Source: Lachnospiraceae bacterium
Lineage (GTDB): Bacteria > Bacillota > Clostridia > Lachnospirales > Lachnospiraceae
Direction: 5' to 3'
DNA length: 38,178 bases
Assembly (NCBI GenBank): GCA_024683645.1
Contig: JAIKYA010000177.1
Span: 1 to 38,178, forward strand
Below are positions 1 to 13,738 of this stretch, in pieces. The position numbers and the translations under genes were made by a program. Positions within the stretch are counted from its first letter, which is position 1; every line of letters starts with the position of its first letter. The notes below the pieces were generated by a model that saw only the letters and a program-made list of their open reading frames with translations, made no database searches and was not told the origin of the DNA.

Positions 1-183
1 TTCCTTATATATAGTCTCAGCCTCATGTGCTTCTGACACCTGCGATCCGATATCGGCATTGAACTCACTGTGAAAAAATCGATCCGCAAAAACTTCGGGA
101 TGCTTATCATATCGTATTTTTACCGCAAAACCATCATAAAAACTATCGTAAAATCTATGACCCTGGAAGCTTCTTACTTGCTT
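1..183 (-). pseudogene. Open frame without a start codon at the window edge, possible gene fragment
   Basis: Read on the minus strand this frame stays open for 61 codons from just after a TAA at 184-186 to the window edge. The predicted residues are hydrophilic and mixed (for example GHRFYDSFYDGF and EVFADRFFHSE), which looks more protein-like than random. There is no ATG, GTG or TTG near its beginning and no ribosome site. Codon use is more A/T-rich than in the neighbouring genes. It may be the remnant of a gene whose 5' part was lost or frameshifted, or it may be chance. A plus-strand frame over the same bases is also open for a similar length, which weakens the case. I do not recognise a family. 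Confidence 0.22.
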
Positions 184-366
184 TTAGACCATAAGCGTTT
201 TTACAAGGCAATGACATTTATGACCGTGGAGTAACAATAACTTGCATTAGGTCATATTTCAGAGATTAATAGGCTTGATTCAGACATGATGAACTGATAG
301 GGAGCAGCATTGGCTAGCGTATCGGATGCAATCCGTCCGTATACGGCATTCTGATCCGGCCGGGGA
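184..366. other. Gene-free stretch downstream of the ABC transporter
   Basis: No coding frame stands out here. The stretch contains short perfect palindromes: CCGTATACGG near 337-346, CGGAT-GCA-ATCCG near 323-335, and GATCC-GGCCGG-GGATC near 354-369, the last reaching the end of the ABC transporter gene. None is followed by a T-run on the minus strand, so I do not call a terminator. The 3' end of the cluster transcript is therefore undefined. Confidence 0.4.
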
Positions 367-2064
367 TCACACCTCAAATACCCGGTCGCAGTATTTCAGG
401 GCGCTGGCTCTGTGGGCGATGATGATGACGGTGTAGCTGCCCTTGAGTGCGTTTACGGTTTCCAGGAAATCGCTCTGGGTCTCTTCGTCGAGGGCGCTGG
501 TGGCTTCGTCAAAGACGAGCACTTTGGCGCCGCTGTATATCGCGCGGGCAATGCCGAGGCGCTGACGCTGTCCTCCGGAGAGCCTTACTCCGTTTTCTCC
601 GGTCATTGTCCCGGCACGGTCGGGCAGAGTTGAAACAAAGTCAAGAAGACAGGCCATCTCCAGAGCTTTATTGACTCTGTCCCTGTCTATCTTTTCGGGA
701 TCATCCTCAAGAGCCACGTTCTGCTCTATGCTCATATCCAGCAGCACTATCTCCTGAGGCACGTAACCAAACAATCTTCCGTATCCGTCTTCGGCTGTAT
801 CCACGGCCTTTCTGTCAAGCATCACTTCGCCCTTTCCGGGTTTTAAAAGTCCCAGGATCAGCTGTGCAAGTGTGGTCTTTCCGGCGCCGCTGACGCCGCT
901 TATGCCGAGTATCGAACCCTTCTCTATCTTCAAATCCAGGCTGCTGATTACTTCCGTATCAGTGCCCGGATAAGTATAGCTTATGTTTTTAAGTTCCAGG
1001 CTTTCCTCAAATGAAGGCACGGCAGTCTCGTGCTTATCAGCCTTTCGTGCTTCTTCCGTTGCCTGCTTCATTTCCTCAAACACTTCATCATAGGAGCCGG
1101 CATTGGAACGTACTTCATTAAGGCTGCCGAAGATTCCCATCACCGTATCCCGTATCTGCAGAGCTGCCGATACGGAAACCGAGAGCACCACCATTCCTTC
1201 CTTGATATCTCCTGTGATCCCGTAGCTTATCAGCAGCACCGCAAGTATCATCACCAGTGTAAAGAAGTCCACAAGTGCATTCGGCGCATTCATCAGCAGG
1301 TTGCGTTTAACATGTATCCTGTATGATTCCTCCTGGCCCTTTACCTGCCACCTGTATGCCATATCCGTCTTGCCTGCCATACGGAGCTCGGTGATCGCTC
1401 TTAAGCTTTCCTGCAGCTTTATCGATACACGCCTGCCGATCTTATTCAGCTCAACCGCATATCCCTGCAGCCTTCCTTTGGTCAGCTCATATAAGGTAAG
1501 GCACAGGATGCTTATGACAAAAACAGGTATGAGTATCACTGTCCTGTGCATGCCGATAAGTAATACCGAAAGAAGGATAAGAGTCAGAACCTGTGCAGCC
1601 AGTTCCATTGCCGCCACTACTATACCATTCAGCAGGTTCAATGCTGCAACCGAATATCTGTGTATTATATCAGCACTGTGATTGGAAAAATAATACTCAT
1701 AAGGTCTGTTCAGATACCATTTCAGAAGATATCTCGAATACTTCTGCATCATACGGAGCATTACTGCCGTAGACACATAATCATAAAACAATCTGTACAG
1801 GCAGACCAGCGCATACAGAGCCAGTACCACTCCGGATGCAGCCAGAAGATAATGCAGGCTATTCTCCTTAGGAAGAAAGACTGCGATATAACGGAATATC
1901 GGATATGCTGCCGCTTCCGACGGATCGAACAGTATAAAGATATAAGGAACTATCACGGCTATGCTCAACAGCGATACTGCCATGCTCCCCATATCCAGAA
2001 GAAACAGTATGATAAGTTTTCCTTTGTCCTTCCTATCCAGAAGGCTCATGACATTTCTTAACAT
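367..2064 (-). CDS. ABC exporter, fused membrane and ATPase domains
   Basis: This is a single-chain ABC half-transporter that would dimerise in the membrane and drive export by ATP hydrolysis. The membrane domain covers about residues 15-310. The nucleotide-binding domain has Walker A GVSGAGKT (390-397), a Q-loop at Q437, the signature LSGGQ (495-499), Walker B VLVFDE (515-520) and the H-loop histidine at 551, so all catalytic elements are present. There is no N-terminal C39 peptidase domain, so any leader cleavage would need another enzyme. Its start overlaps the end of the PqqD-like gene by 7 bases, which points to coupled translation. Position behind a radical SAM/PqqD pair suggests export of the modified product, or flipping of a glycolipid. 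The substrate is inferred, not shown. It is the last gene of the cluster. Confidence 0.93.
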   Translation of the reverse strand: MLRNVMSLLDRKDKGKLIILFLLDMGSMAVSLLSIAVIVPYIFILFDPSEAAAYPIFRYIAVFLPKENSLHYLLAASGVVLALYALVCLYRLFYDYVSTAVMLRMMQKYSRYLLKWYLNRPYEYYFSNHSADIIHRYSVAALNLLNGIVVAAMELAAQVLTLILLSVLLIGMHRTVILIPVFVISILCLTLYELTKGRLQGYAVELNKIGRRVSIKLQESLRAITELRMAGKTDMAYRWQVKGQEESYRIHVKRNLLMNAPNALVDFFTLVMILAVLLISYGITGDIKEGMVVLSVSVSAALQIRDTVMGIFGSLNEVRSNAGSYDEVFEEMKQATEEARKADKHETAVPSFEESLELKNISYTYPGTDTEVISSLDLKIEKGSILGISGVSGAGKTTLAQLILGLLKPGKGEVMLDRKAVDTAEDGYGRLFGYVPQEIVLLDMSIEQNVALEDDPEKIDRDRVNKALEMACLLDFVSTLPDRAGTMTGENGVRLSGGQRQRLGIARAIYSGAKVLVFDEATSALDEETQSDFLETVNALKGSYTVIIIAHRASALKYCDRVFEV

Positions 2065-2366
2065 GCTTCTATCACATTTTCCCTCAAAAGAGAAGTAAGC
2101 ACTTCCGTCACATCCTCTATCAGTACTTTTATGTCTGCATCATATTCCTGCTCCATCGCAGCCGCTATCTGATCAACGCCTGCTCCGTTTACCAGCTGTT
2201 TCCATACAAACACACCTTCTTCGTTGAGCCGGATGATACCGTTGAATTCACTGTCATCTCCCATATAAACAACAACGGTCCTGCCTACCACTTCTTTCAG
2301 TTCAAAGCCTTCCTTTATCCTGTAAGAAGCCTTTTTATCGATCTTTACGGTTCTTCCAAAAGCCAT
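2058..2366 (-). CDS. PqqD-like peptide-binding protein
   Basis: This 102-residue protein matches the PqqD fold, the small winged-helix domain (RiPP recognition element) that holds a precursor peptide for a radical SAM enzyme. The diagnostic stretch is residues 40-100: an IIRLNEEG turn, then VWKQL, then the pattern of a helix ending in EYDAD, an IEDV helix and a final LLREN(V)I segment. The first 40 residues are an extra beta-rich part. A ribosome site (AGGAGA) precedes the ATG. The gene begins inside the last codons of the GT8-radical SAM gene (22-base overlap) and ends inside the start of the ABC transporter, so the three are translationally coupled. Known family role: peptide chaperone in PQQ, lasso and sactipeptide-type pathways. 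Its client here is unknown. Confidence 0.85.
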   Translation of the reverse strand: MAFGRTVKIDKKASYRIKEGFELKEVVGRTVVVYMGDDSEFNGIIRLNEEGVFVWKQLVNGAGVDQIAAAMEQEYDADIKVLIEDVTEVLTSLLRENVIEAC

Positions 2367-4024
2367 TCGTCTCTCTCCTTCTTACTCAATCCCCATTTCA
2401 TCTCATGCCCGTACCATTCGTCTACCGCACAGTATCTGCAGAAGGGGATGGGTTTACACAGGAAATTGAGTATCTCTTCTTTATCCTTTGCCTTAAATAT
2501 ATCTATGCTGTCTTCTTCACATTCAGCGATCCCGCTCGGAAACACGCTTTCCAGTCTGTAACTGCGCCCTGCCAGTGAACAGGGATAGAGCCTGTGACCT
2601 TTGAGCTGTATGCACTCATTTGCAAGATAACAGTTAAAGAAATTGTATTTTATATCCCTTGTTCCGGAAGGATCGAAGAGATGCTTTCTGAAATGCACAT
2701 CTTCATTACCGCTGTTATTGAAGAAAGTCATCGCCACATCAAACATGAGTCCTGCAGCCCTTATCTCTTCGGTCTTTATATCGATGGGATAACGCGTGAC
2801 CGATATCTCTATATCATTGTCATGACAGCAGAGCCAGAAAGCCTCATCCATCTGAGTAAGCCTGATCCCGTTGGTCACTATCTGTATCTTACCCTCGGGA
2901 AAAGCTTTCCTTGCAGAGGCCATGATACTGTTTATATCAGGATGAAGCAGAGGTTCACCTCCCATCAGATGTATGGAAGAAACCCTTCCTTCAAACAGTT
3001 CTCCGAGTCTGACAAAACTTTTTTCAAGTTCGCCGGCATCCGCCAGTTCTTCTTTTATAAGCGGAGAAAAATGTGCACAGGCCTTGCAGTTAAGATTACA
3101 GTGTCCTGCCAGGTCTACTTCAAAAGCCAGTTCCCTTCTCGGTATACAGCGCTTGAGCCTGATGCTCCCTGTTCTGTCAAGCAGCATATTAATAAACACG
3201 GATCTGCCTGCCACCGGCCAGAAATACTGATAAGCTTCTTCTGTATCGTTCACCCAGGGTTTCATATGCAGTCCCGCAAAATGAACTATAGCCGGATCTT
3301 TCCTTGCATTGTCTATCTCTTCCCTGAGTACTTCCGGAAGATTCTTATCATGATGCTCTTTTATTATGCAGTTCCATTTGGCATCGAGTATCAGCTTGCT
3401 CTCTGCACAGGCAATGTTAAGCACATCCTGATCATGGTTTCTGAAATCATTCTCCATAGCGATGCGGATAAGCCCGTCTTCACCGAGCATTTCGCGTATG
3501 GCTTTCAGGTTCATCAGCAGTACGCCGCTGTTAAAATAATCGTTATAGTTTTTAAATCCTATCTCGTTATCGTAATACTCCCTGCCGCCATCCACTCTTC
3601 CGTGATACATGCCTATTCCGGTATAATCCCTGACAGCTCCGATCATCCTGTCTCCAAGCTCACAGCCATACATTTCTTCCAGGTCTTTTAAGACTATCAC
3701 ATCGCAGTCCAGATATATCACTTTATCATATTCCGAATATTCCGGTATAAACAGACGGTAATATGCTTCCTGTGGAAGGTCCGGCCTGTTGCCTGTAAAG
3801 AAATTGAAGCTTTCACTTTCTTCGCCGATCGATATAAATTCAATATCAAGATGCTTATACTCCGAAACCTCTGCACGCAGCATTTCTGCACACTCCGGAA
3901 TCTCTTTCATAAGCAGCTTTACCTCGTACCGACTGTTTACCGCTGTTTCTTCCATGGAACGCAGAGTCACTGAAAGCATCGGCAACAGATATTCATTTGC
4001 ACAAAAGACCACGGGTATCTTCAT
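2345..4024 (-). CDS. GT8 glycosyltransferase fused to a radical SAM domain
   Basis: Two enzymes in one chain. Residues 1-275 look like a GT8 retaining glycosyltransferase: the metal-binding DxD as DCD (106-108), NSG (165-167), HDQD (197-200) and the late HFAGLHMKPW segment (248-257). Residues 300-550 are a radical SAM domain with the iron-sulfur motif C309-x3-C313-x2-C316 and the SAM-binding GGEP (355-358). Cysteines at 465, 471, 482, 502, 523, 529 and 532 could bind an auxiliary cluster like SPASM or twitch domains. Similar HCNLNCKAC-type enzymes occur near polysaccharide loci, from memory of the family. The ATG overlaps the previous GT2 stop as ATGA, and the PqqD-like gene begins within its 3' end. 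The likely role is sugar transfer plus radical modification of the same or successive substrate. Whether that is a peptide or a glycan is not decided by the sequence. Confidence 0.88.
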   Translation of the reverse strand: MKIPVVFCANEYLLPMLSVTLRSMEETAVNSRYEVKLLMKEIPECAEMLRAEVSEYKHLDIEFISIGEESESFNFFTGNRPDLPQEAYYRLFIPEYSEYDKVIYLDCDVIVLKDLEEMYGCELGDRMIGAVRDYTGIGMYHGRVDGGREYYDNEIGFKNYNDYFNSGVLLMNLKAIREMLGEDGLIRIAMENDFRNHDQDVLNIACAESKLILDAKWNCIIKEHHDKNLPEVLREEIDNARKDPAIVHFAGLHMKPWVNDTEEAYQYFWPVAGRSVFINMLLDRTGSIRLKRCIPRRELAFEVDLAGHCNLNCKACAHFSPLIKEELADAGELEKSFVRLGELFEGRVSSIHLMGGEPLLHPDINSIMASARKAFPEGKIQIVTNGIRLTQMDEAFWLCCHDNDIEISVTRYPIDIKTEEIRAAGLMFDVAMTFFNNSGNEDVHFRKHLFDPSGTRDIKYNFFNCYLANECIQLKGHRLYPCSLAGRSYRLESVFPSGIAECEEDSIDIFKAKDKEEILNFLCKPIPFCRYCAVDEWYGHEMKWGLSKKERDEWLLEEP

Positions 4025-5028
4025 CTTTTCACCTTAAACAGAAAACGGGGAGGCACTTTTCCTTTTTTCAGCATACCATAAACATACCTTACAAATAAAG
4101 AGTTTTCATCCCTGCCTGTTCCCGCATTCATGGCAGCCTGCAGTTCAGGCTTCTTCATCATCTTATTCCAGTAAGCCTTGCGTTCGTCACTCATTTTTCC
4201 TTCGGACATTTCCTGTACCAGAGTCATTATGATAAACATCCTTATCCTGATATCAATCTGTTCCGTTAATGCGGGTTCGATCTCTGCAATCTTTTTTTTG
4301 CCGAAAACACTGAGTTTCCGGAGACGCCCAAGCATATCGCTTTCGGTACTGTTGGTACGTGAACCTTCCCGCAGTCTGTAATGATATAAGCATTCCTTTA
4401 TCTGATAATGACTTTTCGCCAGCCCTGCGCAAATTACCGAACATACGGCATCCTCACCGAGTACGCAGTCATCATCCATTCCATCTATAGCCTGGGACAG
4501 CAGCTCCTTTTTTATTATCTTGCTGCAAAGTGAATTCTGTATGATGTGGGTGTCATATTCCGAAGGTGCTGCCAGAAGCACCTTTCTGTATTTCTCTCCG
4601 ATATACAGTCCGGTTTCCTGGGGATGTGTCCCTATGCCTATATATGTTCTGGCATTTCTGAACATGCTGCACTGCACCATGTCGGCATCAGTCTCCTTCG
4701 CGGCTTTACACATTTTTGCGTACATATCCGCTTCTATCCAATCATCTCCGTCCACAGAACCTATATATATACCGGCTGCTTTTGAGAGACCGTATTTTCT
4801 TGCGGCTACAATGTTTCCGTGATCCTTATGGAATACCCTGATACGATCATCTTTCGCGGCAAAAGCATCTGCCCTGCTTCCGCTGTCATCCGTGGAAGCA
4901 TCGTCGACCACTATCACCTCAAAGTCTTCGAATTGCTGCTCAATTAAGCTTCTTAAGCATCTGTCGATATATTCTCCCACATTATAACAGAGCACTATGA
5001 TGCTCAGAAACACTCTGTCAGATGACAT
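4021..5028 (-). CDS. GT2 family glycosyltransferase
   Basis: This 335-residue inverting glycosyltransferase has the standard GT-A start: LSIIVLCYN near residue 8, VIVVDDASTDDSG near 38-50 and the metal-binding DGDD in GSVDGDDW near 92-99. The C-terminal part (about 200-335) is helical and has no obvious membrane anchor, so it probably acts at the inner face of the membrane on a lipid-linked or protein acceptor. The ATG has a purine-rich ribosome site (GGAAAGAG). A strong hairpin terminator lies only some 20 bases upstream, so expression may depend on read-through from the surface-protein gene. It overlaps the GT8-radical SAM gene by ATGA. The donor sugar cannot be assigned. Confidence 0.92.
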   Translation of the reverse strand: MSSDRVFLSIIVLCYNVGEYIDRCLRSLIEQQFEDFEVIVVDDASTDDSGSRADAFAAKDDRIRVFHKDHGNIVAARKYGLSKAAGIYIGSVDGDDWIEADMYAKMCKAAKETDADMVQCSMFRNARTYIGIGTHPQETGLYIGEKYRKVLLAAPSEYDTHIIQNSLCSKIIKKELLSQAIDGMDDDCVLGEDAVCSVICAGLAKSHYQIKECLYHYRLREGSRTNSTESDMLGRLRKLSVFGKKKIAEIEPALTEQIDIRIRMFIIMTLVQEMSEGKMSDERKAYWNKMMKKPELQAAMNAGTGRDENSLFVRYVYGMLKKGKVPPRFLFKVKR

Positions 5029-5050
5029 ATCTCTTTCCTATCTTTCATAC

Positions 5051-5079
5051 TAAAAGAAGCCCCGGGATATTCCCGGGGC
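5051..5079 (-). terminator. Hairpin terminator or attenuator between surface protein and GT2
   Basis: A perfect 9-bp stem (GCCCCGGGA / TCCCGGGGC) with a 3-base loop at 5059-5079 is followed on the minus strand by TTCTTTTA. This is a plausible rho-independent terminator directly after the secreted-protein gene, with no room for a new promoter before the GT2 start. Partial termination, giving more of the surface protein than of the enzymes, is a reasonable inference. Confidence 0.8.
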
Positions 5080-5088
5080 AACTCACCA

Positions 5089-7629
5089 TTACTTAAACTC
5101 AACTTTTCCTGTATAATTGCCTTTTCCGCTTACCGTGATGATACCTTTCTTTTTCTTCAGCTTATAATCTTTAGATTTAAGTTTGATCTCGCTGCCGTCA
5201 TCTGTGATATATATGACTTTGTATTTGTTTTTCTTAAGTGTTTCAAGTCTTATATTATCTTTTGTAAGCTCTCTGGCGTTAAATTCAATCCTTATCTTTT
5301 TATTCTTAAGCTTTTTGTTCAGCTGTTTGATCAGGGCTTTCTGTTCTGCCGTTGCATTGCTTTTTGCTTTAAAGCTGAGAGTCAGGTAAGCGCCGTCCTT
5401 GCTTACGTTCTTACTCTTCTTAGCATTAAATACGGGCGTAGCATATTCCGTAACAGCTCCCTTTATCTCGGCGTGGATATCAGCTGTTTTATTCTCATCT
5501 TCTTCCGCGCCTTCGATCACATGTGTAGTTCCGTTATAACTTATCGTCTTTGTAACTATCACATCAAATTCCGTTGTAACAGCATTATCCTTATTACCGG
5601 TCTTTATGCTGAAAGGCTCCAGCTTAAGCCATTCCTTATCTATTGTATAATGTATCTCGCTTATCTTTCCGGTACTGTAGTTCTTATCTCCGACAGCGCA
5701 GGCTTTTAATACTGTTTCTGTCTTTTTGCCTGCTTCGCCGGATATTTTTATCTCTCCGCCATCATACTTAACGGCATTTGCTGAAACGGAAGGATCTGAA
5801 CCATCCAGGGTATAGTAGATATTCAGGTCCTCATATGCTCCCTTAGCGCAGGAAAGCTTTACTGCAATATCCTTTATATAGCTTCCCTCTTTCAGATCTG
5901 CAGTCACTTCGGGAGCTGTCAGCTTCGCTTTAGTGATCTCATATCTGTACTCAGCAGTATCGCTGACCGAATAATTCTTTACACCTTCTGCACAGGCCTT
6001 AAGCACGATACTGTTCTTTACTCCGGGTACACCGCTGATATCGATGGCGTCCTTATAAAGCTTTCTGCTCTCGGAAACTGCAGGATCACTTCCATCCAGC
6101 GTATAGTATATCTTTAACGGCTCATATACGCCTTCAGCCACTGAAAGCTTAACCTGCTTATCTTCGGTATAGCTTCCTCCGTTAACGTCTGCAACAGGCG
6201 TTGCAGCCTTTTCCTTAGGCTTATTGATATAATACACATATTCCGCAGTTTCACCGGCTGAATAATTCTCTTCGCCGACGGAATAAGCCTTCAATACCAC
6301 TCTTGTCACTTCACCGGGTATGCCGCTGATCTCTATGCCTTTACCGTCATACTCTTTTCTGCTCGGGGAAGTCAGCGGATCACTGCCATCCAGCGTATAC
6401 CAGGTTTTAGTATTCTCATAGGTGTTACTGGTATCAAGAGTGATCACCCTGTCATCGGTATAATAATTGGCAGGTATGCTTGTCTTCGGTTTTTCGGCCT
6501 GCTCCTTTTCTTTTTCTATTATATAAGTATATTCAAGGTAATCAGAAGCCTGATATTCACTGGCTTCATAATACACCTTGAGCGTAACCGTAGTCTTCCT
6601 GCCCGGTATGCCTTCAAGCTTTATTCCTCCGCCGGTATATTCTTTTCTTCCCTCGGATACAGCAGGGTCCGTTCCGTCTGTCGTATAGTATACCCTCTGC
6701 GTCGGCTGCTTTCCATCCTCAAACAGTTCTACAAGCAGATCCTCGGTATAGATATATTCCTGATCCGCCGTATTTGAAGGCAGACTAACAGCTTTATCTT
6801 TTTTACCTCTGATACGGTAATGATATACACTGTATTCATCGTTTTCTATAGGATTGCCCGTATTTAATTTGCCTTTAAGATTTGTTGTCTTTTTGTTTAA
6901 AATGAAAAGATAATAATCCGTAGGCTCTTCGTACTGCTCAAGATAATAAGTCACGGTTTTTTGCGGGATATCTATATCGGGACCATACAGGTTCCTGAAA
7001 CCATAGTAGATGTAGTTATCCGATACTACCGGTCCTTCTTCATATAACGTCTTTATCATACTTTCGAACCAGATAGCTCTGTCTGCTACTATCTCTGAAA
7101 TCATCCTGAACTTCTCTCTCTGTGCAGCACTTGTCCCCATCCATGTTTCAACATACGTGTCCAGACTGTCATCATCTACTTCCATTCCATACATCAATAA
7201 ATAAACATCTTTAAGCACTCTTTTTGCATCTTCTTTGGATATTCCGATGTTAGGATCCGAAATGCTGACATTGAACTGATCATCTTCATATGCAGCAAGC
7301 AAGGAGGCTGATTGTATATAATTTTTTAACTGTTCCTGGGTAGTTATACTGTTTCCGCTTAACAGTATTCCTTTTATCAGATTGTTCTCTTCAAGTCCAC
7401 TTTTAGCATCCGTAATAATATTGGCATTATCCGATATCATGGATTTCACCGTAAGCACAAGAGCGTTGTCATATGTTCCGGGCAGTACAGACAGCTCATA
7501 GTCTGCAGGATCAAAGATAATAAACTCCGGATTCCCTTCCGGCTCACCTAAAGCTGCCGTAAGCGGTACCATCGCTATCGCCAGACACACTATGGTCATA
7601 AGAAATGCAACATATACATTTTTTTTCAT
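5089..7629 (-). CDS. Secreted protein with four chitobiase/hexosaminidase C-terminal-type repeats
   Basis: The best start is the ATG at 7629, which overlaps the stop of the 74-residue ORF as ATGA and follows GGAGAAG. An in-frame ATG at 7641 would add four residues. The N-terminus (MKKNVYVAFLM, then a hydrophobic run ending near LTAALG) is a signal peptide. About residues 110-230 are helical, with a stretch around VYLLMYGMEVDDDSLDTYV that faintly resembles DUF4214. Four tandem domains of roughly 85-90 residues follow, each with Y(Y/T)T(T/L)DG(T/S)DP, then a G(I/E)(P/A)G turn and a closing YxYxI strand. This is the CHB_HEX_C_1 type often found in Clostridia surface proteins. The C-terminal 200 residues are lysine-rich and beta-like and end in GNYTGKVEFK. 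No sortase motif, S-layer domain or catalytic domain is seen. It may be the surface target of the neighbouring glycosyltransferases. Confidence 0.85.
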   Translation of the reverse strand: MKKNVYVAFLMTIVCLAIAMVPLTAALGEPEGNPEFIIFDPADYELSVLPGTYDNALVLTVKSMISDNANIITDAKSGLEENNLIKGILLSGNSITTQEQLKNYIQSASLLAAYEDDQFNVSISDPNIGISKEDAKRVLKDVYLLMYGMEVDDDSLDTYVETWMGTSAAQREKFRMISEIVADRAIWFESMIKTLYEEGPVVSDNYIYYGFRNLYGPDIDIPQKTVTYYLEQYEEPTDYYLFILNKKTTNLKGKLNTGNPIENDEYSVYHYRIRGKKDKAVSLPSNTADQEYIYTEDLLVELFEDGKQPTQRVYYTTDGTDPAVSEGRKEYTGGGIKLEGIPGRKTTVTLKVYYEASEYQASDYLEYTYIIEKEKEQAEKPKTSIPANYYTDDRVITLDTSNTYENTKTWYTLDGSDPLTSPSRKEYDGKGIEISGIPGEVTRVVLKAYSVGEENYSAGETAEYVYYINKPKEKAATPVADVNGGSYTEDKQVKLSVAEGVYEPLKIYYTLDGSDPAVSESRKLYKDAIDISGVPGVKNSIVLKACAEGVKNYSVSDTAEYRYEITKAKLTAPEVTADLKEGSYIKDIAVKLSCAKGAYEDLNIYYTLDGSDPSVSANAVKYDGGEIKISGEAGKKTETVLKACAVGDKNYSTGKISEIHYTIDKEWLKLEPFSIKTGNKDNAVTTEFDVIVTKTISYNGTTHVIEGAEEDENKTADIHAEIKGAVTEYATPVFNAKKSKNVSKDGAYLTLSFKAKSNATAEQKALIKQLNKKLKNKKIRIEFNARELTKDNIRLETLKKNKYKVIYITDDGSEIKLKSKDYKLKKKKGIITVSGKGNYTGKVEFK

Positions 7630-7850
7630 TTTCTTCTCCATCCTCTGGGCAGTCCCATAAAGCCGGCTTCAAGTCTTCTTCTTGATTGACGAAGCATCAC
7701 TTCTGTGAATTCTAAGTATTCAAACATGGTTCTCCAGCAGTTATCATTCGGGTTCAAAGATCCTCCGCTTAAACCTCTGCGCATCATATCCTTTGAAGTA
7801 TCATAACTGGACACTTCCATCTCTATGCCCCTGTATATCTTTTTTCCCAT
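7626..7850 (-). CDS. Small orphan protein, 74 residues, candidate precursor or accessory peptide
   Basis: This short gene is well supported: a strong ribosome site (AGGAGGG, 7 bases before ATG), a sigma-A-like promoter just upstream, and an ATGA overlap with the secreted-protein gene. The protein is charged, rich in Arg and Met, has a single Cys next to Trp (DNCWRT) and a Gly/Pro-containing basic tail (GLPRGWRRK). There is no signal peptide or membrane segment. I do not recognise the family. In a locus with PqqD, radical SAM, an S26-like peptidase core and an exporter, a short peptide gene is a candidate RiPP precursor. But it lacks an obvious leader-core boundary, so a regulatory or chaperone role for the following protein is equally possible. 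Confidence 0.72.
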   Translation of the reverse strand: MGKKIYRGIEMEVSSYDTSKDMMRRGLSGGSLNPNDNCWRTMFEYLEFTEVMLRQSRRRLEAGFMGLPRGWRRK

Positions 7851-7864
7851 TTTATTCCCTCCTT

Positions 7865-7880
7865 ATGTCAATTTTGACAT
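7865..7880. promoter_or_regulatory. 16-bp palindrome, candidate operator
   Basis: A perfect inverted repeat, ATGTCAA-TT-TTGACAT, lies between the minus-strand promoter and the ribosome site of the 74-residue gene, about 6-21 bases after the expected transcription start. Its right arm also contains the -35 box of the plus-strand promoter, so one bound regulator could control both directions. No regulator gene is seen nearby. Confidence 0.5.
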
Positions 7881-7902
7881 TACTAACACTATATGATATA
7901 AG
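7874..7902 (+). promoter_or_regulatory. Plus-strand sigma-A-type promoter facing the GT4 fragment
   Basis: TTGACA at 7874-7879, a 17-base spacer and TATAAG at 7897-7902. The first in-frame ATG of the GT4-like fragment (7910) lies only 7 bases later, so a transcript would be nearly leaderless. The -10 overlaps the minus-strand -10. Confidence 0.5.
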
Positions 7903-7921
7903 AATTTGTATGAATCGTCAA
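7893..7921 (-). promoter_or_regulatory. Minus-strand sigma-A-type promoter of the 74-residue gene and downstream cluster
   Basis: TTGACG (7916-7921), a 17-base spacer and TATCAT (7893-7898) on the minus strand. The expected start is near 7886, giving a leader of about 36 bases that carries the palindrome and the AGGAGGG site. This gives the secreted protein, GT2, GT8-radical SAM, PqqD and ABC genes a promoter separate from that of the two upstream genes. Confidence 0.6.
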
Positions 7922-8398
7922 CATTTATTGCTTTTAAAACGTGCTTATCCGTATACATATTCCGATGATAAGAGGTTGCTTTTGAGGTATACTCTGAAGC
8001 TTGAAAAACTCTTTGTTCTCTGTCTTTTTTCTTCACTGAAATCTGCAGAAGAACTGGATATCTCCCTTGCACTGATGAAGAAGCTTAAGAACTCCCGTCC
8101 GGAAAGCCGCCTTATCCTGCTCGGTGACGGACCGCTTCTTCACAGACTGACAGCCGGCTGTGAATATGATGACCTGACTGACATAGTCCTCCCTCTGGGG
8201 ATCACCAATGATCCCGCCGGTATCCTCTCTGTTTCCGATGCTCTCATCATCCCTGTATGGGACCGCCATTCCGGCTTACTTAAAACTGCCGCTGCAGCCA
8301 ATTCCCTGCCTCTTATCACTTCCGATGAAGGGCCGGATATCGAAAGCCGCGCATCCCTGCTTGAAGAAAAAGCCTTATCTCTTCCCATCAGGTCCTGA
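7910..8398 (+). pseudogene. Truncated GT4-type glycosyltransferase fragment
   Basis: This is the only plus-strand coding signal in the window. From about codon 25 the product follows the C-terminal nucleotide-sugar domain of GT4 enzymes: a helix with ALMKKLKNSRPESRLILLGDGPLL, then DIVLPLGITNDPAGILSVSDALIIPVWD, then AAANSLPLITSDEGPD. The N-terminal acceptor domain (some 180-200 residues) is missing. The usual catalytic Glu pair region (E-x7-E) is replaced by SGLLKTAAAAN. The frame can be extended to an ATG at 7793, but that part is antisense to the 74-residue gene and looks unrelated. The 3' end overlaps the end of the convergent three-domain gene by 11 bases. Most likely a relic left by rearrangement of the glycan locus. 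A functional small protein is possible because a promoter faces it. Confidence 0.6.
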
Positions 8399-10331
8399 CA
8401 TAGATACTCATCCGGCATTCGTCAAATATCGCCGGACCGTTCATAAGCATCAGCTCTTTTGAGTTCTTATCTATGCCGGCTTCCTTCTTTATAAAGCCTG
8501 CCTCTCTTAATCTCGAGTCTATCTTTTCCTCCATGGCAGCGCCGAAAACATAGGCCTTGAAACTCCTGTCAGCAAGCTCACTCTGCTCACTGCTTTTGCT
8601 GAATGCCATTATGATCGTTGCATCCTCTGAAGCTTTGCTTATCAGCTCATCAAGAGCTTTCAGTGGTTCCGATGCAAACTCAAGCCCGTGCACGCACAGT
8701 ATACTCTTAAATCTTTTCCCTTCAGGTGGCTGCAATTCCGGATCCTCATCACACAAGCCTTCACCCTCCGGTTCCCTGTATGCCACGGGTCCAAGCACAT
8801 AATAGGGTATCAGCTTTCTTTTAAGCCAGCTTTCTATCGGCGGATGCATGGAATAACTCAGTATTTCGTTTCCGGTAAAGCCCTCTTCTTTCTCCGCCGC
8901 GTTCACGGCCAGCCGCATGTAAGGAACGCTTCCGCAGTAACAGCAGCTGATCTTCTCTTTGGTCGTATAATATTTCTTTCTTTTTTCCTGATCCCAGTCC
9001 CGGTCTTCATAGATTCTGAAAGGAGCGAAATTACCGCAGCAGTTACAATAGCGGTATCCCTTCTTAAACAGAGCTGCTCTCCTGATCCCGGTTATTATGC
9101 CATCAAGGACCGTGAACCTGCTCTTCAGCATATGATAAGCCCTTCCTTCGGCATCCCGGATATCCTTAAGCTCGCCCTCCCTTTCTATCTTCACCACTGT
9201 TCCGAGCACCATAGCCCTGTCCACCGGTGTATCCTTCTCTTTGCTGTTATCACCCTTAAGGATGTAATACTCTCTGCCGTTCTTCCTTGTTTTTCCTATC
9301 AGACGGTGAAGCACTGCTCCATTCCCGTCTTCACAGAGTAATATATCTCCCTTTTCTGTTTTTTCTCTCTTTTCGATCCATACGGTATCGGTATCCGGTC
9401 TGATAAGCGGAAGCATGCTTATGCCCGTCGGTTTCAGTCTCACTCTTTCTCCTGCTGACAGCAGCATCTTCAACATATCGGTATAGCCGGCAGCATCAAT
9501 ATTTCCCCTTTCCCTCTTTCTCTGTATAAGGACTATATTATCCAGCTTTCTGCGGATCTCCTCTGCCTGATCCTTAAGCATCGGATAGCCGGCAGCTTCC
9601 ACAGCAGCTTTAAGCCCTTCCTCGAATAGCTGTCTGTTTTCCGGAAAATTAAAAAAACCCTGTCGCATCAGCGAGTCATTTCTCTGGGTATAGTGATAGA
9701 GAGGCTCATCCGACACAACAACGGTTTTAGCCCGCAAAAGCGTACCATACGAAAGTATAGTATCCTCACCGCGCGCCAGTCTGTCATCAAGACATAAAGC
9801 AGCTTCAGCATACAGTTCTCTTTTTGCCAGCAGGTTCCATACTGTAGGCGCATTATCCGTATTTCCGCTTTCCCTGTCATAGAGAAGGCTTTTGTTCTTG
9901 ATCTCTTCCCATTCATCCGGCTTGTGATAACCGCTCTTAAGCCTGATCCTGCCTTTTATGCTCTTATCGCTATATTCCATGGTATATCCGCAGATGACCG
10001 CATCTGCAGTATATTCCGCCATGCTGTCTGCCATCTTCTTAAGCATATCAGTTTCCATATAGTCGTCCGCATCCAGGAATATCAATGCATCTCCCTGCGA
10101 ATATGATATCAGTTCCTTCCTGCAGGCCGCTATGCCTCTGTGTTCTTCTCTATATATACGTACACGCGGGTCAGTGCTTCCGTAAGCCATGATAAGTTCC
10201 GGACTTTCGTCATCCGAACCGTCATCCAGTATGATAAATTCAATATCCGTAAAGCTCTGTTTTAATACGCTTTTAATACATCGCACTATATAAGCTTCAG
10301 CATTATATACTGCTGTCAGTACGGATATCAT
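8388..10331 (-). CDS. Three-domain protein: GT2, S26 peptidase-like core, zinc ribbon/methyltransferase-like domain
   Basis: Residues 1-230 form a GT2 glycosyltransferase: ISVLTAVYN at the start, IILDDGSDD near 33-41 and FLDADD (85-90). Residues 295-390 match the catalytic core of S24/S26 signal peptidases. Ser305 sits in GISMLP, followed by GDILL, then His342 in VLHRL and Asp361 in KGDN. This Ser-His-Asp set is of the SipW/ER type rather than the Ser-Lys type. No membrane anchor flanks it. Residues 425-470 hold two CxxCG pairs (C429/C432 and C463/C466), a zinc ribbon. About 480-640 resembles a class I methyltransferase, with LCVHGLEFASEPLKALDEL in the place of the usual late motif, but I see no clear glycine-rich SAM loop, so activity is doubtful. 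The gene starts 3 bases after the GT-C stop. Possible roles are a glycosylating and processing enzyme for an exported protein or peptide. Confidence 0.82.
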   Translation of the reverse strand: MISVLTAVYNAEAYIVRCIKSVLKQSFTDIEFIILDDGSDDESPELIMAYGSTDPRVRIYREEHRGIAACRKELISYSQGDALIFLDADDYMETDMLKKMADSMAEYTADAVICGYTMEYSDKSIKGRIRLKSGYHKPDEWEEIKNKSLLYDRESGNTDNAPTVWNLLAKRELYAEAALCLDDRLARGEDTILSYGTLLRAKTVVVSDEPLYHYTQRNDSLMRQGFFNFPENRQLFEEGLKAAVEAAGYPMLKDQAEEIRRKLDNIVLIQRKRERGNIDAAGYTDMLKMLLSAGERVRLKPTGISMLPLIRPDTDTVWIEKREKTEKGDILLCEDGNGAVLHRLIGKTRKNGREYYILKGDNSKEKDTPVDRAMVLGTVVKIEREGELKDIRDAEGRAYHMLKSRFTVLDGIITGIRRAALFKKGYRYCNCCGNFAPFRIYEDRDWDQEKRKKYYTTKEKISCCYCGSVPYMRLAVNAAEKEEGFTGNEILSYSMHPPIESWLKRKLIPYYVLGPVAYREPEGEGLCDEDPELQPPEGKRFKSILCVHGLEFASEPLKALDELISKASEDATIIMAFSKSSEQSELADRSFKAYVFGAAMEEKIDSRLREAGFIKKEAGIDKNSKELMLMNGPAIFDECRMSIYVRT

Positions 10332-10334
10332 AGA

Positions 10335-12233
10335 TCATTCACCCAGTTCAAAATAGAGCTCACCGCCACAGGATTCGCCGTCAATATACAACTGTCCATA
10401 ATAGGAAAAGATTGACGAAGAAGCATATACCTCCGGCACCGGAGCTGTTTCGGTATTAACGCCCTCTATCCCTTCTATTCTTATCTCATATTCAGTATCT
10501 TTTTTAAATTCTGTCTTCCTGAAACTGATAACCGTATCACTGTTTGCCGGGATCAGACTGCAGCCTATTATCTTCTCTGCAATGGGCTCCTCTTTTCCGC
10601 TTTCATACAATGATATTTTTAATGATGAAAAATCACTTCTTGTGCTGTTGTTGTTTTTAAGTCTGAGTTTCAGCTTACGTGCTGTGCCATCATTTAAGAT
10701 CTTAAATACCTGTACTACCGAATGCACATCCTCATCCATTATCTTAATGCCATATTCCTGATCAGCATATTCCCTGTTAGAGAACAGAAGTCTGTCAACT
10801 GCTCCATAGGCATGTAAGGGCAGCCAGAACACTGTCGCAAAAAGCACTGCCCTGAGTATCAATACTGCTGCAGCACTGACGGGATTTTTTATCTCCAGCT
10901 TTTCACCGGCCCTGTCGACTATACGGGGATGCGTAAGTATCAGGAGCAGAAGCATGCATGCCATGAAAATACTGAAAAAAGCCTCATAGCACTGATCAAT
11001 GCCATATCTTGTGAACATGTCTATCATAGAATCATAACTGTATACTGCTTCGGATCTGCCCGAAAGCGGCCTGAGCAGCAGACGGTTTATCAGCATCCCG
11101 TCTTCATTGAGAGGCACACTTGAAATTGCCTCCTCCATAAAGAAACAGAAAGAGGCAACAGCTTCCAGTAAAAGATACAGTATCCTTCCCCTGCTCTCTG
11201 CTGCTATGATGATCACAAGAAAAGGAAGCATCAGTATCACCCAGTAAGTTGTGATCTGGACAAAGGTAACAAAACTTCCGAGTACAAGGAAACAGATATA
11301 TATGATCTCTCTCCTGCTTCTGTTCGCTGCCAGAATACAATATACCAAAACCGCTACAAAGACCAGGATAAAGATACAAGTGCCGCTCGGAAAGTTCGGT
11401 CCCAGCAGCTGTCTGAATGCATCTCTTGCCTGGGAACCCAGCGCCGCTCTATATATAGCGCTTCGGCCAAACAGTAAAGCCTCTGTCAACGGCAGTATAA
11501 ATATGCATAAGGTTTTCCCGACTATCTTTAAGATGTTTTTTTCTTTGAGCAGTATCAGCGGAAGAAAAACAAACAGTGCAAATGTCTTGAACGGCATTGC
11601 CAGAGCAAACGCGATAATAAACATCTTTTCTCTGTTTGTAATATAAAACAACACTCCCAAAAGAATGAGATCAAGGGCTATGATATCGATCTGCGTAAGT
11701 ATTACAAGACTTAAGAGAAAAGCGCTGCTTCCGAAAAAAGCGAAGATACAGATAAAACCCGGTCCCTTTCCCGCAAAAGGTCCATATTCCTCTGATCCAT
11801 TCCCGTCTTTTTCCTTAATGATCTCTGCAGCAATACGATTCATCAATAAAACAGCTATCACAGCAGCAAATATCAGCGGCAGTTTTCCCCACATAAGAGC
11901 AGGAGGTGATGACAGATAATTAGCGCCGTATATCTTCCAGGAAAGAAAGATGGGTATATTCCATAAAGCCCAGATGATATAGGTAAAGAAGCTGTAATTT
12001 GCTGCATATAACGTAGTGGAATTAGCTACACTGTACTCATAAAAATCCCTGATATGTCCTTCGCTGATGCATCTCAGCAGCAACACCGAATTCTCTATCG
12101 TATCCGTGATATCGGCATACATATATATCATGAAGCCTGCCAGTATCAGCAGGACCGAGAAATTCAAAACCGAGCCGGAAACAGTTATTACCGGCTTACG
12201 CGAATCTTCCTTTATCTCTGTTTCAACACTCAT
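10335..12233 (-). CDS. Polytopic GT-C-like membrane glycosyltransferase with extracytoplasmic beta domain
   Basis: The protein has about eleven or more hydrophobic helices between residues 25 and 480, then an outside domain (about 485-632) rich in beta strands. An early loop after the first helix is long and contains DITDTIEN, where GT-C enzymes carry an acidic catalytic site. LILTQIDIIALDLILLG resembles a core GT-C segment. I therefore read it as a lipid-phosphate-sugar dependent transferase (GT39/GT87-like), but no family signature is decisive and a Wzy-like polymerase is possible. It is the first gene of the glycan locus. The ATG lies in an ATGA overlap with a 13-codon upstream frame. An extended -10 box is some 55 bases upstream. 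The gene is followed at once by the three-domain protein. Confidence 0.72.
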   Translation of the reverse strand: MSVETEIKEDSRKPVITVSGSVLNFSVLLILAGFMIYMYADITDTIENSVLLLRCISEGHIRDFYEYSVANSTTLYAANYSFFTYIIWALWNIPIFLSWKIYGANYLSSPPALMWGKLPLIFAAVIAVLLMNRIAAEIIKEKDGNGSEEYGPFAGKGPGFICIFAFFGSSAFLLSLVILTQIDIIALDLILLGVLFYITNREKMFIIAFALAMPFKTFALFVFLPLILLKEKNILKIVGKTLCIFILPLTEALLFGRSAIYRAALGSQARDAFRQLLGPNFPSGTCIFILVFVAVLVYCILAANRSRREIIYICFLVLGSFVTFVQITTYWVILMLPFLVIIIAAESRGRILYLLLEAVASFCFFMEEAISSVPLNEDGMLINRLLLRPLSGRSEAVYSYDSMIDMFTRYGIDQCYEAFFSIFMACMLLLLILTHPRIVDRAGEKLEIKNPVSAAAVLILRAVLFATVFWLPLHAYGAVDRLLFSNREYADQEYGIKIMDEDVHSVVQVFKILNDGTARKLKLRLKNNNSTRSDFSSLKISLYESGKEEPIAEKIIGCSLIPANSDTVISFRKTEFKKDTEYEIRIEGIEGVNTETAPVPEVYASSSIFSYYGQLYIDGESCGGELYFELGE

Positions 12234-12272
12234 TTTGTTTTCATCCCATCAATATATTTTTCTGCATCCATT
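12231..12272 (-). CDS. Possible 13-codon leader peptide
   Basis: A short frame (ATG near 12272; product MDAEKYIDGMKTK) ends in a TGA that overlaps the ATG of the GT-C gene as ATGA. No good ribosome site precedes it, and the GT-C gene also has only a weak one, so re-initiation from this mini-frame could help its translation. It may be chance. Confidence 0.25.
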
Positions 12273-12286
12273 TTAAATCTATTACG

Positions 12287-12295
12287 ATTATAACA
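12287..12295 (-). promoter_or_regulatory. Extended -10 promoter of the GT-C gene
   Basis: TGTTATAAT on the minus strand (TATAAT at 12287-12292 with an upstream TG) fits an extended -10 sigma-A promoter. The region 17 bases upstream is T-rich (TTTTGT) and gives only a weak -35. The expected start near 12280 gives a leader of about 45 bases. Confidence 0.55.
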
Positions 12296-12336
12296 TTTTT
12301 CCGTATAAAACAAAAACCCTCTAACTTGCCCTGGAG

Positions 12337-12462
12337 TCATTGAATTTCTTTCGCGAGTTGTTCTGTCAGTTCGTAGAGAGTCCAGTTTAGATTCACGGGA
12401 GTTACGACAGCCTTCATTCTGATGCTCTTAAGGCCTGTTGCGTTGTTTTTCTTATCCCCCAT
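12337..12462 (-). CDS. Small ORF, 41 residues, unknown
   Basis: The frame starts 6 bases after the stop of the coiled-coil gene. The product begins MGDKKNNATGLKSIR, continues through MKAVVTPVNLNW and ends LYELTEQLAKEIQ, an amphipathic helix. Third codon positions (AAC, AAG, AGC, ATC) resemble real genes here. The ribosome site is weak (AGAAGA), so translation would rely on re-initiation. I know no family. It may be a small regulatory protein, a peptide precursor, or the remnant of a larger gene. Confidence 0.4.
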   Translation of the reverse strand: MGDKKNNATGLKSIRMKAVVTPVNLNWTLYELTEQLAKEIQ

Positions 12463-12468
12463 GATTTG

Positions 12469-13512
12469 TCATCTTCTGCTGCGCATCACTGTTATGATGA
12501 TTCCTGCAATAGCAAGTACCAGAAGGCCGGCAGAGATGCTTCTTAAGTTTTTGATCTTCTTCGATATGCTGACAAACTCTTCGGTCTCATAAACAGGCAC
12601 GAAAGAGACCAGCGTGTTTTTATCCGCTTCGTAAGCTTCAAGTTCTTTAAGCTTTTCTTTGGTTTCTTTTATCTGCGCTTCGCTCTCTTCCAGTTTCTGC
12701 TCCTCTTCATGAAAAGCTTCCGTTTCACTTTCAAGCTCATCGCTCTCATTATCCAGATAGGAGTATTTCCTGTCCAGTTCATCATATTTTGCCTGAAGCT
12801 CATCGGCCCGCTCCTGCAGGGCTGCCGCTCTTCCTCTCAGATCGGCAGGTAAAAGAGCCAGTACCTCCGGCGATAATTCATTCCCGTTATTCTCTATCTC
12901 CGTATAATCCCTGATGGCACCGGTAGATATAAGATAAGCGAATATCTCTTTCATCAGCCCTTCCCTTATACTCTGGATCTTTACGGCCTCCTTCTGGAGT
13001 TCACCGTTTTCCAGCACATAAGGTTCAGCCTTTCTTTCTGACTCATCCTGTCTGGCCTCGAGTTCTTCCCGCTTCTGCTTCAGATCCTCGGCCATATCCT
13101 GCATCTCATCCAGGTAAGCCTGCCACTGTCCCTTATTGCTCTCGGCCAGCTCAGCCTCAAGTGCATCATCCGTCAGTCCTCCGGTCAGGGAAAGTATGGT
13201 AAGTTTTCTCTGAAGTACTTTTGCTTCGTCCCTTTCTTTTTCTTCGCTTTCCGGCTCTTCCCTGTATTTCCAGGCATATCGGCATTCATCCTGCGCATAC
13301 AGGGTGATGCCTTCCTTTCCGAAAGCATATAAAAGCTGCTCCGACGGCTCATGCTCCAGCGTAAAACTGCCGTCGGTCGTAATACGCTCCCGATAACTCT
13401 TCTTTATGCCCTTCTCTATATTTCCGCCGAAAATAAAAAAGCCGCCGGCGATAACAAAAACCGTCACCAGTATCATCAGTATATAAGTTTTCGGCACACG
13501 TGATCTTTTCAT
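12469..13512 (-). CDS. Membrane-anchored coiled-coil protein, unknown function
   Basis: The 347-residue protein has a membrane helix at about 10-28 and a second one at about 322-341 followed by RSRR. Between them lie roughly 290 residues, mostly heptad-rich, charged coiled coil (about 105-165 and 230-300, rich in Glu, Lys and Leu). An early beta-like segment contains DGSFTLEHEPSEQLLYAFG. The arrangement, a tethered coiled coil with both ends in the membrane, suggests a structural or scaffold role at the cell envelope. No enzyme motif is seen. The ATG lacks a strong ribosome site. A promoter near 13.81 kb would give it a leader of nearly 290 bases containing the hairpin array. Confidence 0.75.
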   Translation of the reverse strand: MKRSRVPKTYILMILVTVFVIAGGFFIFGGNIEKGIKKSYRERITTDGSFTLEHEPSEQLLYAFGKEGITLYAQDECRYAWKYREEPESEEKERDEAKVLQRKLTILSLTGGLTDDALEAELAESNKGQWQAYLDEMQDMAEDLKQKREELEARQDESERKAEPYVLENGELQKEAVKIQSIREGLMKEIFAYLISTGAIRDYTEIENNGNELSPEVLALLPADLRGRAAALQERADELQAKYDELDRKYSYLDNESDELESETEAFHEEEQKLEESEAQIKETKEKLKELEAYEADKNTLVSFVPVYETEEFVSISKKIKNLRSISAGLLVLAIAGIIITVMRSRR

Positions 13513-13572
13513 GTTAATAAACCCGAGTTTTTCGGCGAGCCGGCCATCGGAAAACGATACATTGCTTTAAAT

Positions 13573-13738
13573 GGCATTCCGCTTGCGGAATGCCCTGCGC
13601 CGAGCGCGGTTGCCGAAGGCAACAATTTCATTACGCGCGAGTGCGCATAAAGGCGGCAAACGCAATCGCAGATTGTGTTTGCTCGCGTCATTTTTACTTG
13701 CTTTAGCAAGTAAAAATGACAGCTCACACTGTCATTTT
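13573..13738. repeat. Array of adjacent inverted repeats in the leader of the coiled-coil gene
   Basis: Seven hairpins lie side by side. The main ones are a 10-bp perfect stem at 13573-13594 (GGCATTCCGC arm), a 6-bp stem at 13609-13623 (GTTGCC/GGCAAC), a 12-bp stem with one G-T mismatch at 13656-13682, a 16-bp perfect stem at 13687-13720 (GTCATTTTTACTTGCT arm) and a 10-bp stem at 13713-13738 (AAAATGACAG arm). The last two share bases and so exclude each other. Two small GCGC stems sit at 13597-13607 and 13635-13646. This looks like a mosaic mobile or REP-like repeat, or a structured leader RNA. A chance frame runs through it on the minus strand. Confidence 0.75.

Follow-up and report, generated by a model that had tools for sequence, protein, structure and literature searches.

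A Lachnospiraceae locus that combines a RiPP-type peptide half with glycan machinery

Gene content and layout

The window analysed here is a whole contig of 38,178 nucleotides (JAIKYA010000177.1; G000:C110 in our numbering) from the 3.1-Mb draft genome of a Lachnospiraceae bacterium (GCA_024683645.1; 91% complete, 5.8% contaminated). Its minus strand carries a hybrid locus at 367-12233, in which a peptide half of the type known from ribosomally synthesised and post-translationally modified peptides (RiPPs) stands together with a half made of glycan machinery. Read 5′ to 3′, the locus encodes a GT-C-like membrane protein, a fusion of a GT2 glycosyltransferase with an S26 leader peptidase (GT2-S26), a 74-aa open reading frame (ORF), a secreted repeat protein, a second GT2, a fusion of a GT8 glycosyltransferase with a radical SAM domain, a PqqD-type RiPP recognition element (RRE) and an ABC protein (Table 1). 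Every gene that an initial annotation had named from the sequence alone is present. Base 1 of the window is the contig end, 366 bases past the stop of the ABC gene. The ten proteins within 367-13512, including a GT4 fragment on the plus strand, were scanned against Pfam and NCBIfam.

The last four genes are tied together by overlaps of 4, 22 and 7 bases (GT2/GT8-radical SAM, GT8-radical SAM/RRE and RRE/ABC, respectively), and the start of the secreted protein gene overlaps the end of the 74-aa ORF (7626-7641). Terminator-like hairpins, one of which is listed in Table 1, number 15 in the region, where 9.6 are expected.

Table 1. Features of the locus, in window coordinates
Feature	Position	Strand	Basis
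632-aa membrane protein, GT-C-like by topology	10335-12233	-	10 hydrophobic stretches
GT2 + SipW-like S26 core + unmatched C-terminal part, one 647-aa frame	8388-10331	-	
GT2 domain of 647-aa fusion	9909-10325	-	PF00535 E 1.1e-31
SipW/LppS-like S26 leader peptidase domain	9162-9464	-	TIGR02228 E 8.6e-6, Peptidase_S24 E 0.0035, both below curated cut-offs
C-terminal part of 647-aa fusion	8391-9134	-	no Pfam/NCBIfam match
GT4 glycosyltransferase fragment	7793-8398	+	weak Pfam score, poor coding signal; opposite strand to all neighbours
74-aa ORF, candidate precursor peptide	7626-7850	-	AGGAGG ribosome-binding site
Leader-like stretch YRGIEMEVSSYDTSKDMM, residues 6-23 of 74-aa ORF	7782-7835	-	5.4 bits on leader matrix
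Secreted protein, four CHB_HEX_C_1 repeats	5089-7641	-	PF13290 E 6.8e-26
Terminator-like hairpin, after the secreted protein gene and ahead of the last four genes	5059-5079	-	9 pairs, 8 G-C, T-rich tail
GT2 glycosyltransferase	4021-5028	-	PF00535 E 1.8e-29
GT8 + radical SAM, one 559-aa frame	2345-4024	-	E 4.7e-35 and 1.2e-9
GT8 domain of 559-aa fusion	3248-4012	-	PF01501 E 4.7e-35
Radical SAM domain of 559-aa fusion	2360-3121	-	PF04055 E 1.2e-9; CxxxCxxC
PqqD-type RRE	2058-2366	-	PF05402 E 1.4e-13, 51 bits, cut-off 23.4
PglK-like ABC protein, last gene of block	367-2064	-	NCBIfam; ABC tree; PDB comparison

The adapter, the leader peptidase and a candidate precursor

The RRE is the sole PF05402 match in the window's genome. 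We aligned it with LppB (9x8z_B) of the linear polyphosphorylated peptides (LPPs), RiPPs described by Popov et al. 2026 (PMC13381572). In this alignment, which is weak overall (E 0.77), N48 and D85 of the window RRE fall on N33 and D70 of LppB, given a shift of 18 in the chain numbers that we inferred from both residues fitting. According to that study, LppB N33 and D70 select YxxP leaders and hold the leader Tyr. In a tree of RREs (86 columns, 72 rows), the bootstrap of which had not settled, the window RRE and its counterpart from RUI559, a metagenome-assembled genome of Butyrivibrio sp., adjoin two YxxP-type RREs, L161 (same genus as the window) and L334 (99/79).

Matches to PF05402 occur in 186 of the 397 family genomes and in 13 of the 35 genus genomes. 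From the listed matches, 80 stretches were picked by hand for high scores, as genus mates and in some cases for nearby GT2 genes; they are not a random sample. An RRE was recovered by a profile of our own in 63 of them, with an S26 protein within 5 kb in 22 of these and an ABC protein within 6 kb as well in 18. Nucleotidyltransferases of PF14907 lie near the RREs of L146, L161, L162, L167 and L306, and a P-loop is present in six of the seven RRE neighbours looked at, the one in L167 matching HPr kinase weakly (E 2.2e-4, under the cut-off). The gene set around these RREs is the LPP family set of PMC13381572. In L146 and L153, RRE, S26 and ABC genes stand beside GT2 genes, all encoding separate proteins. 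Fusions of RREs to glycosyltransferases are mentioned in the RRE-Finder paper (PMC7470986).

In the GT2-S26 fusion, the catalytic residues of the peptidase are present as Ser (GISM), His (VLHR) and Asp (KGDN), aligned with those of RRE-associated S26 proteins, and the pairs Ser-Met, His-Arg and Gly-Asp recur in 32 of the 33 other alignment rows. For the C-terminal part, a single weak relative turned up (27%, residues 152-362 of the query fragment, E 5.4e-5). A query of the S26 core plus this part found matches in 41 of 255 family genomes, own included. Of the 49 matches other than its own, at least 22 have a PqqD match within 5 kb, counted against 148 PqqD matches among those listed. SipW-like peptidases are also fused to NTP_transf_5 nucleotidyltransferases, in L162 (2057-3718) and L167 (3994-5646), both of the window's genus, and in L306 (11296-12501). 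Because of these peptidase-nucleotidyltransferase fusions, the GT2-S26 protein looks like the product of a swap of the sugar-adding partner. The whole fusion was discarded as a search query, as it drew ordinary GT2s in 234 of the 397 genomes. Separately, a SipW-like leader peptidase is fused to an ABC exporter in the RRE locus L329 (6293-8407).

A scan of positions 1-13600 for short ORFs (22-110 aa, with a ribosome-binding site and outside larger ORFs) kept only two, the RRE and the 74-aa ORF. Tyr-led leaders, approximately YxxP-E-[VMI]-x-[VI]-x-x-F-[DE]-x-x-D-[VI]-I-x-[TA]-S-G, were found in short ORFs of 12 loci, namely L165 and 11 of the 63 with an RRE. An S26 protein is present in 10 of the 12 loci with Tyr-led leaders versus none of the five with W-type (lasso-like) leaders; in this tally, as in the S26 and RRE alignments and the ABC and RRE trees, locus types follow the choice by eye that also defined the leader set. 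By eye, the N-terminus of the 74-aa ORF fits the Tyr-led leader without gaps. We scored it on an 18-position matrix built from 15 other leaders of 11 loci, chosen by eye, with the L168 copies of two L167 peptides and the W-type, Phe-led and Cys-rich leaders left out. With 5.4 bits it ranks first among the 1537 start codons of the window. As good a score arose in 8 of 20,000 cases when the whole ORF was shuffled and in 2 of 20,000 when its first 40 residues were; among the 29,151 starts of short ORFs in L185-L263, 6 reached it. The codon score of the ORF is reached by 0.3% of 640 non-coding windows and exceeds that of just 3% of 128 gene windows. The motif YxxI lies within the W/Y/LxxP/L/I range of RREs given in PMC12710340. 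No NCBIfam model matches the 74-aa ORF, nor the ORFs of nine other leaders.

Short ORFs near other RREs took further forms. The LPP-like locus L311 holds two identical 55-aa precursor genes about 2 kb apart (8097-8264 and 10040-10207), and in L313 (4938-5774) four consecutive short ORFs carry W-type (lasso-like) leaders, three of them with closely similar cores. A third leader type, approximately YxxPxIxxESFxLSxxIA, occurs in L177 (3016-3258), L182 (8737-8994), L301 (284-529) and L302 (6206-6466); these peptides are longer and contain Cys, and radical SAM motifs lie nearby in L177 and L182.

The glycan machinery and its conservation

Beyond its CxxxCxxC motif, the radical SAM domain has four further conserved Cys residues (465, 482, 529 and 532) in invariant columns of a 10-row alignment. 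Its closest relatives in the 397 family genomes are frames of about 275-420 aa without GT8. We fetched 17 stretches around such relatives and scanned ten neighbours or fusions from six of them, which comprised SPASM radical SAM proteins, a GT4, a cytidylyltransferase with a methyltransferase, an aldo-keto reductase, two proteins without a match and two GT2-radical SAM fusions from the window's genus (L057 and L058). In the named genome collection, a radical SAM pattern matched at least 580 stretches, of which 435 were confirmed and the best 80 kept, all with the domain at 212.7 bits or above. GT2 matches occur in 26 of these 80 loci and GT8 matches in five, whereas an RRE occurs in one (RUI559) and an S26 domain in none; the other 79 are without an RRE, although only 62 of the 80 are 10 kb or longer and short contigs may hide neighbours. 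Conversely, in the 80 stretches around PqqD matches the window's radical SAM family never exceeds 100 bits, its highest score there being 34. By these comparisons the domain belongs to a radical SAM family of glycan loci, found in records of many phyla, and it is not of the kind that stands beside RREs. No report on the reaction of this family was found in the literature searched.

The GT8-radical SAM fusion was tried and rejected as a general marker, as no other two-domain match appeared beyond the window's genome and RUI559 at the limits used: 35 genus genomes (some match at 1e-10 in 16), 397 family genomes (some match at 1e-25 in 35, only the three best candidates per genome being scored) and 79 genomes of RUI559's genus (11 with a match at 1e-25). 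A more distant fusion to GT8 in Gastranaerophilales (L185, 9998-11848) shares 27% identity in the GT8 and 39% in the radical SAM part and has no RRE match. Members of the family are also fused separately to GT2, again with no RRE match, in L057 (5988-7691), L058 (5047-6786), L217 (8762-10798) and L259 (4699-6543). Several radical SAM or SPASM genes adjoin in the glycan-type loci L048, L049 and L060, and in L285 and L293 (G445:C12:27329-28954) the radical SAM domain occurs twice in one 671-aa frame.

The ABC protein points in the same direction. In a 46-row tree that included only four glycan ABC proteins, the window and RUI559 proteins group with L190 and L191 from glycan loci (100/99), the branch to the window pair being long (1.45). 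The 40 ABC proteins from PqqD stretches fall outside this group; one of them, the long-branched L324, joins at the next wider level. Among the best 60 of 262 PDB matches, the top rows are two-half eukaryotic transporters; of the single-length matches PglK is the best, end to end, with 174-176 bits (PDB 5c73 and 6hrc) versus 154 for MsbA. In contrast, the ABC protein of the LPP-like locus L146 matches MsbA and BmrA best (207-210 bits), and PglK is not among its best 60 of 279. The NCBIfam models do not separate the two families, as MsbA (218 bits) and PglK (217 bits) both score far under cut-off. On this evidence the window protein is closer to the flippase PglK of Pgl N-glycosylation than to LPP or other peptide exporters. 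The loci L190 (Campylobacteraceae) and L191 (Spirochaetia) share the radical SAM family as well as the ABC grouping with the window, but no RRE, S26 domain or GT8 fusion was found there; in L190, nucleotide-sugar enzyme genes (read by eye) adjoin the ABC and radical SAM genes.

The block of GT8-radical SAM, RRE and ABC genes was found in one other locus, L184 of RUI559 (3678 bases). As the order is the same in both, the block is not a chance neighbourhood. Identity to the window amounts to 56% in the GT8 part, 72% in the radical SAM part, 54% in the RRE and 65% in the ABC protein, the GT8-radical SAM frame of RUI559 being cut at residue 102 by the contig end. A hairpin (3487-3515, by eye) follows the RUI559 ABC gene, and no ORF of 60 aa or more lies in the roughly 210 bases to the contig end. 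The upstream genes were not found in the RUI559 draft genome, nor was a full-length GT2-S26 relative, and the second GT2 had only partial matches there (31-42%). Single-protein patterns found no relative on viral contigs; on plasmids and phages no place covered 80% of the fusion used as query, and the RRE query gave only weak PqqD matches on 4 Cronobacter plasmids. The locus is rare and its distribution patchy, which agrees with the numerous gains and losses that PMC13381572 reports for LPPs. The upstream half was seen in one genome only.

The 632-aa membrane protein matches no Pfam or NCBIfam model. It has relatives in 42 of the 397 family genomes at 1e-6, own included, the best other at 31% identity, and its residues D41 and D183 are invariant across 20 aligned rows. 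The initial annotation had called it a GT-C-like membrane enzyme; the membrane topology stands, and GT-C-like is used here as a label for that topology, not as a tested family. The secreted repeat protein begins with a signal-peptide-like stretch that is without the leader motif.

A peptide module wired into glycan assembly?

In several respects the locus resembles LPP clusters. It shares with them a discrete RRE with Asn and Asp at the contact positions, a SipW-like serine leader peptidase, a short candidate precursor with a putative Tyr-led leader and a patchy distribution; LPP clusters, like those of paeninodin, are also reported to lie often in capsule loci, with a role described as unknown (PMC13381572). 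As far as sequence tells, the locus works by LPP logic of RRE plus SipW-like peptidase. The differences are substantial: in the window the peptidase is fused to GT2, the leader reads YxxI rather than YxxP, the ABC protein is PglK-like rather than MsbA-like, and GT8-radical SAM, GT2 and GT-C-like proteins are added. LPP precursors are defined as 35-200 aa with a YxxP-type leader, and the window ORF, at 74 aa with YxxI, is recovered by the matrix and not by HMMER. Because neither the nucleotidyltransferase nor an MsbA-like exporter was found, the locus does not count as an LPP in the narrow sense. Glycosylated paeninodin-type lasso peptides (pseudomycoidin, PsmN; PMC7533575) likewise combine a discrete RRE with a sugar-adding step on a ribosomal peptide, and rumen Butyrivibrio lasso clusters also hold GT2 genes. 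However, the window RRE has Asn where W-type RREs have Gly, and no lasso macrolactam cyclase or B2 peptidase was found among the ten proteins scanned (the genome was not searched).

The RiPP reading of the initial annotation is borne out in part. LPPs are matched by the PqqD-like adapter in its contact residues, by the SipW-like domain in its catalytic residues and, weakly, by the short ORF in its leader pattern. The radical SAM enzyme and the exporter, counted there as RiPP hallmarks, side instead with glycan loci. The statement that no named system has this gene set needs revision for the peptide half, which now has one in the LPPs; for the full combination we found no description in the literature, judged by titles or passages.

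We propose, with about even confidence, that an LPP-like RiPP module has been wired into glycan assembly, such that an RRE-presented peptide is glycosylated and exported. In this model the 74-aa peptide would be made and its YxxI leader bound by the PqqD-type RRE. The RRE would then present the peptide to the GT2-peptidase fusion, whose GT2 domain could put the first sugar on the core and whose SipW-like domain could remove the leader. Extension and chemical alteration of the sugar part would fall to the GT8-radical SAM protein together with the second GT2, and transport of the glycosylated product across the membrane to the PglK-like ABC protein. On the outside, a sugar may be transferred from a lipid-linked donor by the GT-C-like protein. 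The secreted repeat protein could act at the surface with the product, or receive it. A more specific version, which we put forward tentatively, is that the ribosomal peptide serves as both primer and carrier of a glycan, with the RRE guiding the glycosyltransferases to it, the radical SAM enzyme altering a sugar on it and the PglK-type flippase, of a type known to carry lipid-linked oligosaccharides, exporting the glycosylated peptide.

Several observations weigh against this proposal. Members of the leader matrix score 11.8-46.3 bits when left out in turn, as opposed to 5.4 for the 74-aa ORF, which is therefore at best a distant member of the leader family. Its leader is divergent, with Ile for Pro (YxxI) and no TSG end, and the likeness was noticed by eye before the matrix was applied. 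A local HMMER profile of the leaders ranks the ORF only 44th of the 1537 starts, or 41st of 2001 with shuffles. For a gene the codon signal is weak, and another reading frame of the ORF gives an equal score. In the RUI559 RRE the peptide-contact Asn is kept, but Asn stands in place of D85, and the upstream half of the locus (GT-C-like, GT2-S26, 74-aa ORF, secreted protein and GT2) was seen in the window's genome only. The NTP transferase of LPP clusters (PF14907, NTP_transf_5) has no match in this genome, which is 91% complete, and no HprK-like kinase is among the ten proteins scanned (the rest of the genome was not searched). A PglK-like ABC protein would suit a lipid-linked glycan.

A rival that we consider unlikely is that the locus makes a lipid-linked or surface glycan, with the RRE and S26 domains as leftovers or adapters; the 74-aa ORF would then supply no substrate. 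An oligosaccharide would be built on a lipid by the GT2s and the GT8-radical SAM protein, flipped by the ABC protein and used by the GT-C-like protein, perhaps on the secreted protein. The four GT-type domains, the kinship of the radical SAM enzyme and the ABC protein with glycan loci and the divergent leader all suit such a pathway. Against it, the S26 catalytic residues are intact, and RUI559 retains the RRE at 54% identity with its peptide-contact Asn. Moreover, no lipid-priming enzyme, phosphoglycosyl transferase or PglB-type oligosaccharyltransferase is among the ten proteins scanned (the genome was not searched), although the GT-C-like protein, which matches no model, may be a remote one. 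Absence of the PqqD-like gene and of peptide-size ORFs from related loci that keep the glycosyltransferases had been set in advance as a sign of an ordinary glycan locus, and the outcome is split: distant radical SAM relatives are without PqqD, and the sole close relative of the block keeps it, on a contig cut too short to show any small ORF.

The divergent leader would also fit a model in which the RRE acts on a different substrate, for instance a peptide encoded past the contig end or at another place in the genome. The 74-aa ORF would then be a short upstream frame controlling translation of the secreted protein, whose gene start it overlaps. The contig stops soon after the ABC gene, which leaves room for such a substrate; in RUI559, however, the ABC gene is followed by a hairpin and no sizeable ORF, and the secreted protein, with its signal-peptide-like start, does not itself offer the motif. 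We consider this model improbable. It is also conceivable, though very improbable in our judgement, that an LPP-like RiPP merely shares its operon with a separate glycan pathway and that the RRE and S26 domains only mature the peptide. Such an arrangement has precedents in the LPP clusters of capsule loci (PMC13381572) and in L146 and L153 with their separate GT2 genes, but it sits poorly with the fusion of the peptidase to GT2, with the overlap of the RRE gene by 22 bases with GT8-radical SAM and by 7 with ABC, and with the lack of an LPP-type peptide exporter.

The fusion of a leader peptidase to a glycosyltransferase physically joins the RiPP and glycan parts, and in two genomes the adapter gene has stayed between those for a glycan-type radical SAM enzyme and a flippase. 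Should our proposal of a glycosylated, RRE-presented peptide prove correct, RREs are able to guide the assembly of sugars on peptides, and the locus would offer a defined candidate substrate for the radical SAM family. An RRE-directed route to a peptide-borne glycan would link RiPP with glycan biosynthesis in a way that none of the papers we found describes.

Some minor features accompany the locus. An extended -10-like sequence, TGTTATAAT, read by eye, lies at 12295-12287 ahead of the first gene, although a promoter scan gave no excess over chance (26 found versus 24.9 expected). Before the first gene and a few bases past the stop of the upstream gene, a 41-aa ORF (12337-12462, minus strand) has a modest codon score of 0.094; the leader motif was not seen in it. 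The GT4 fragment on the plus strand is probably a relic of an earlier locus.

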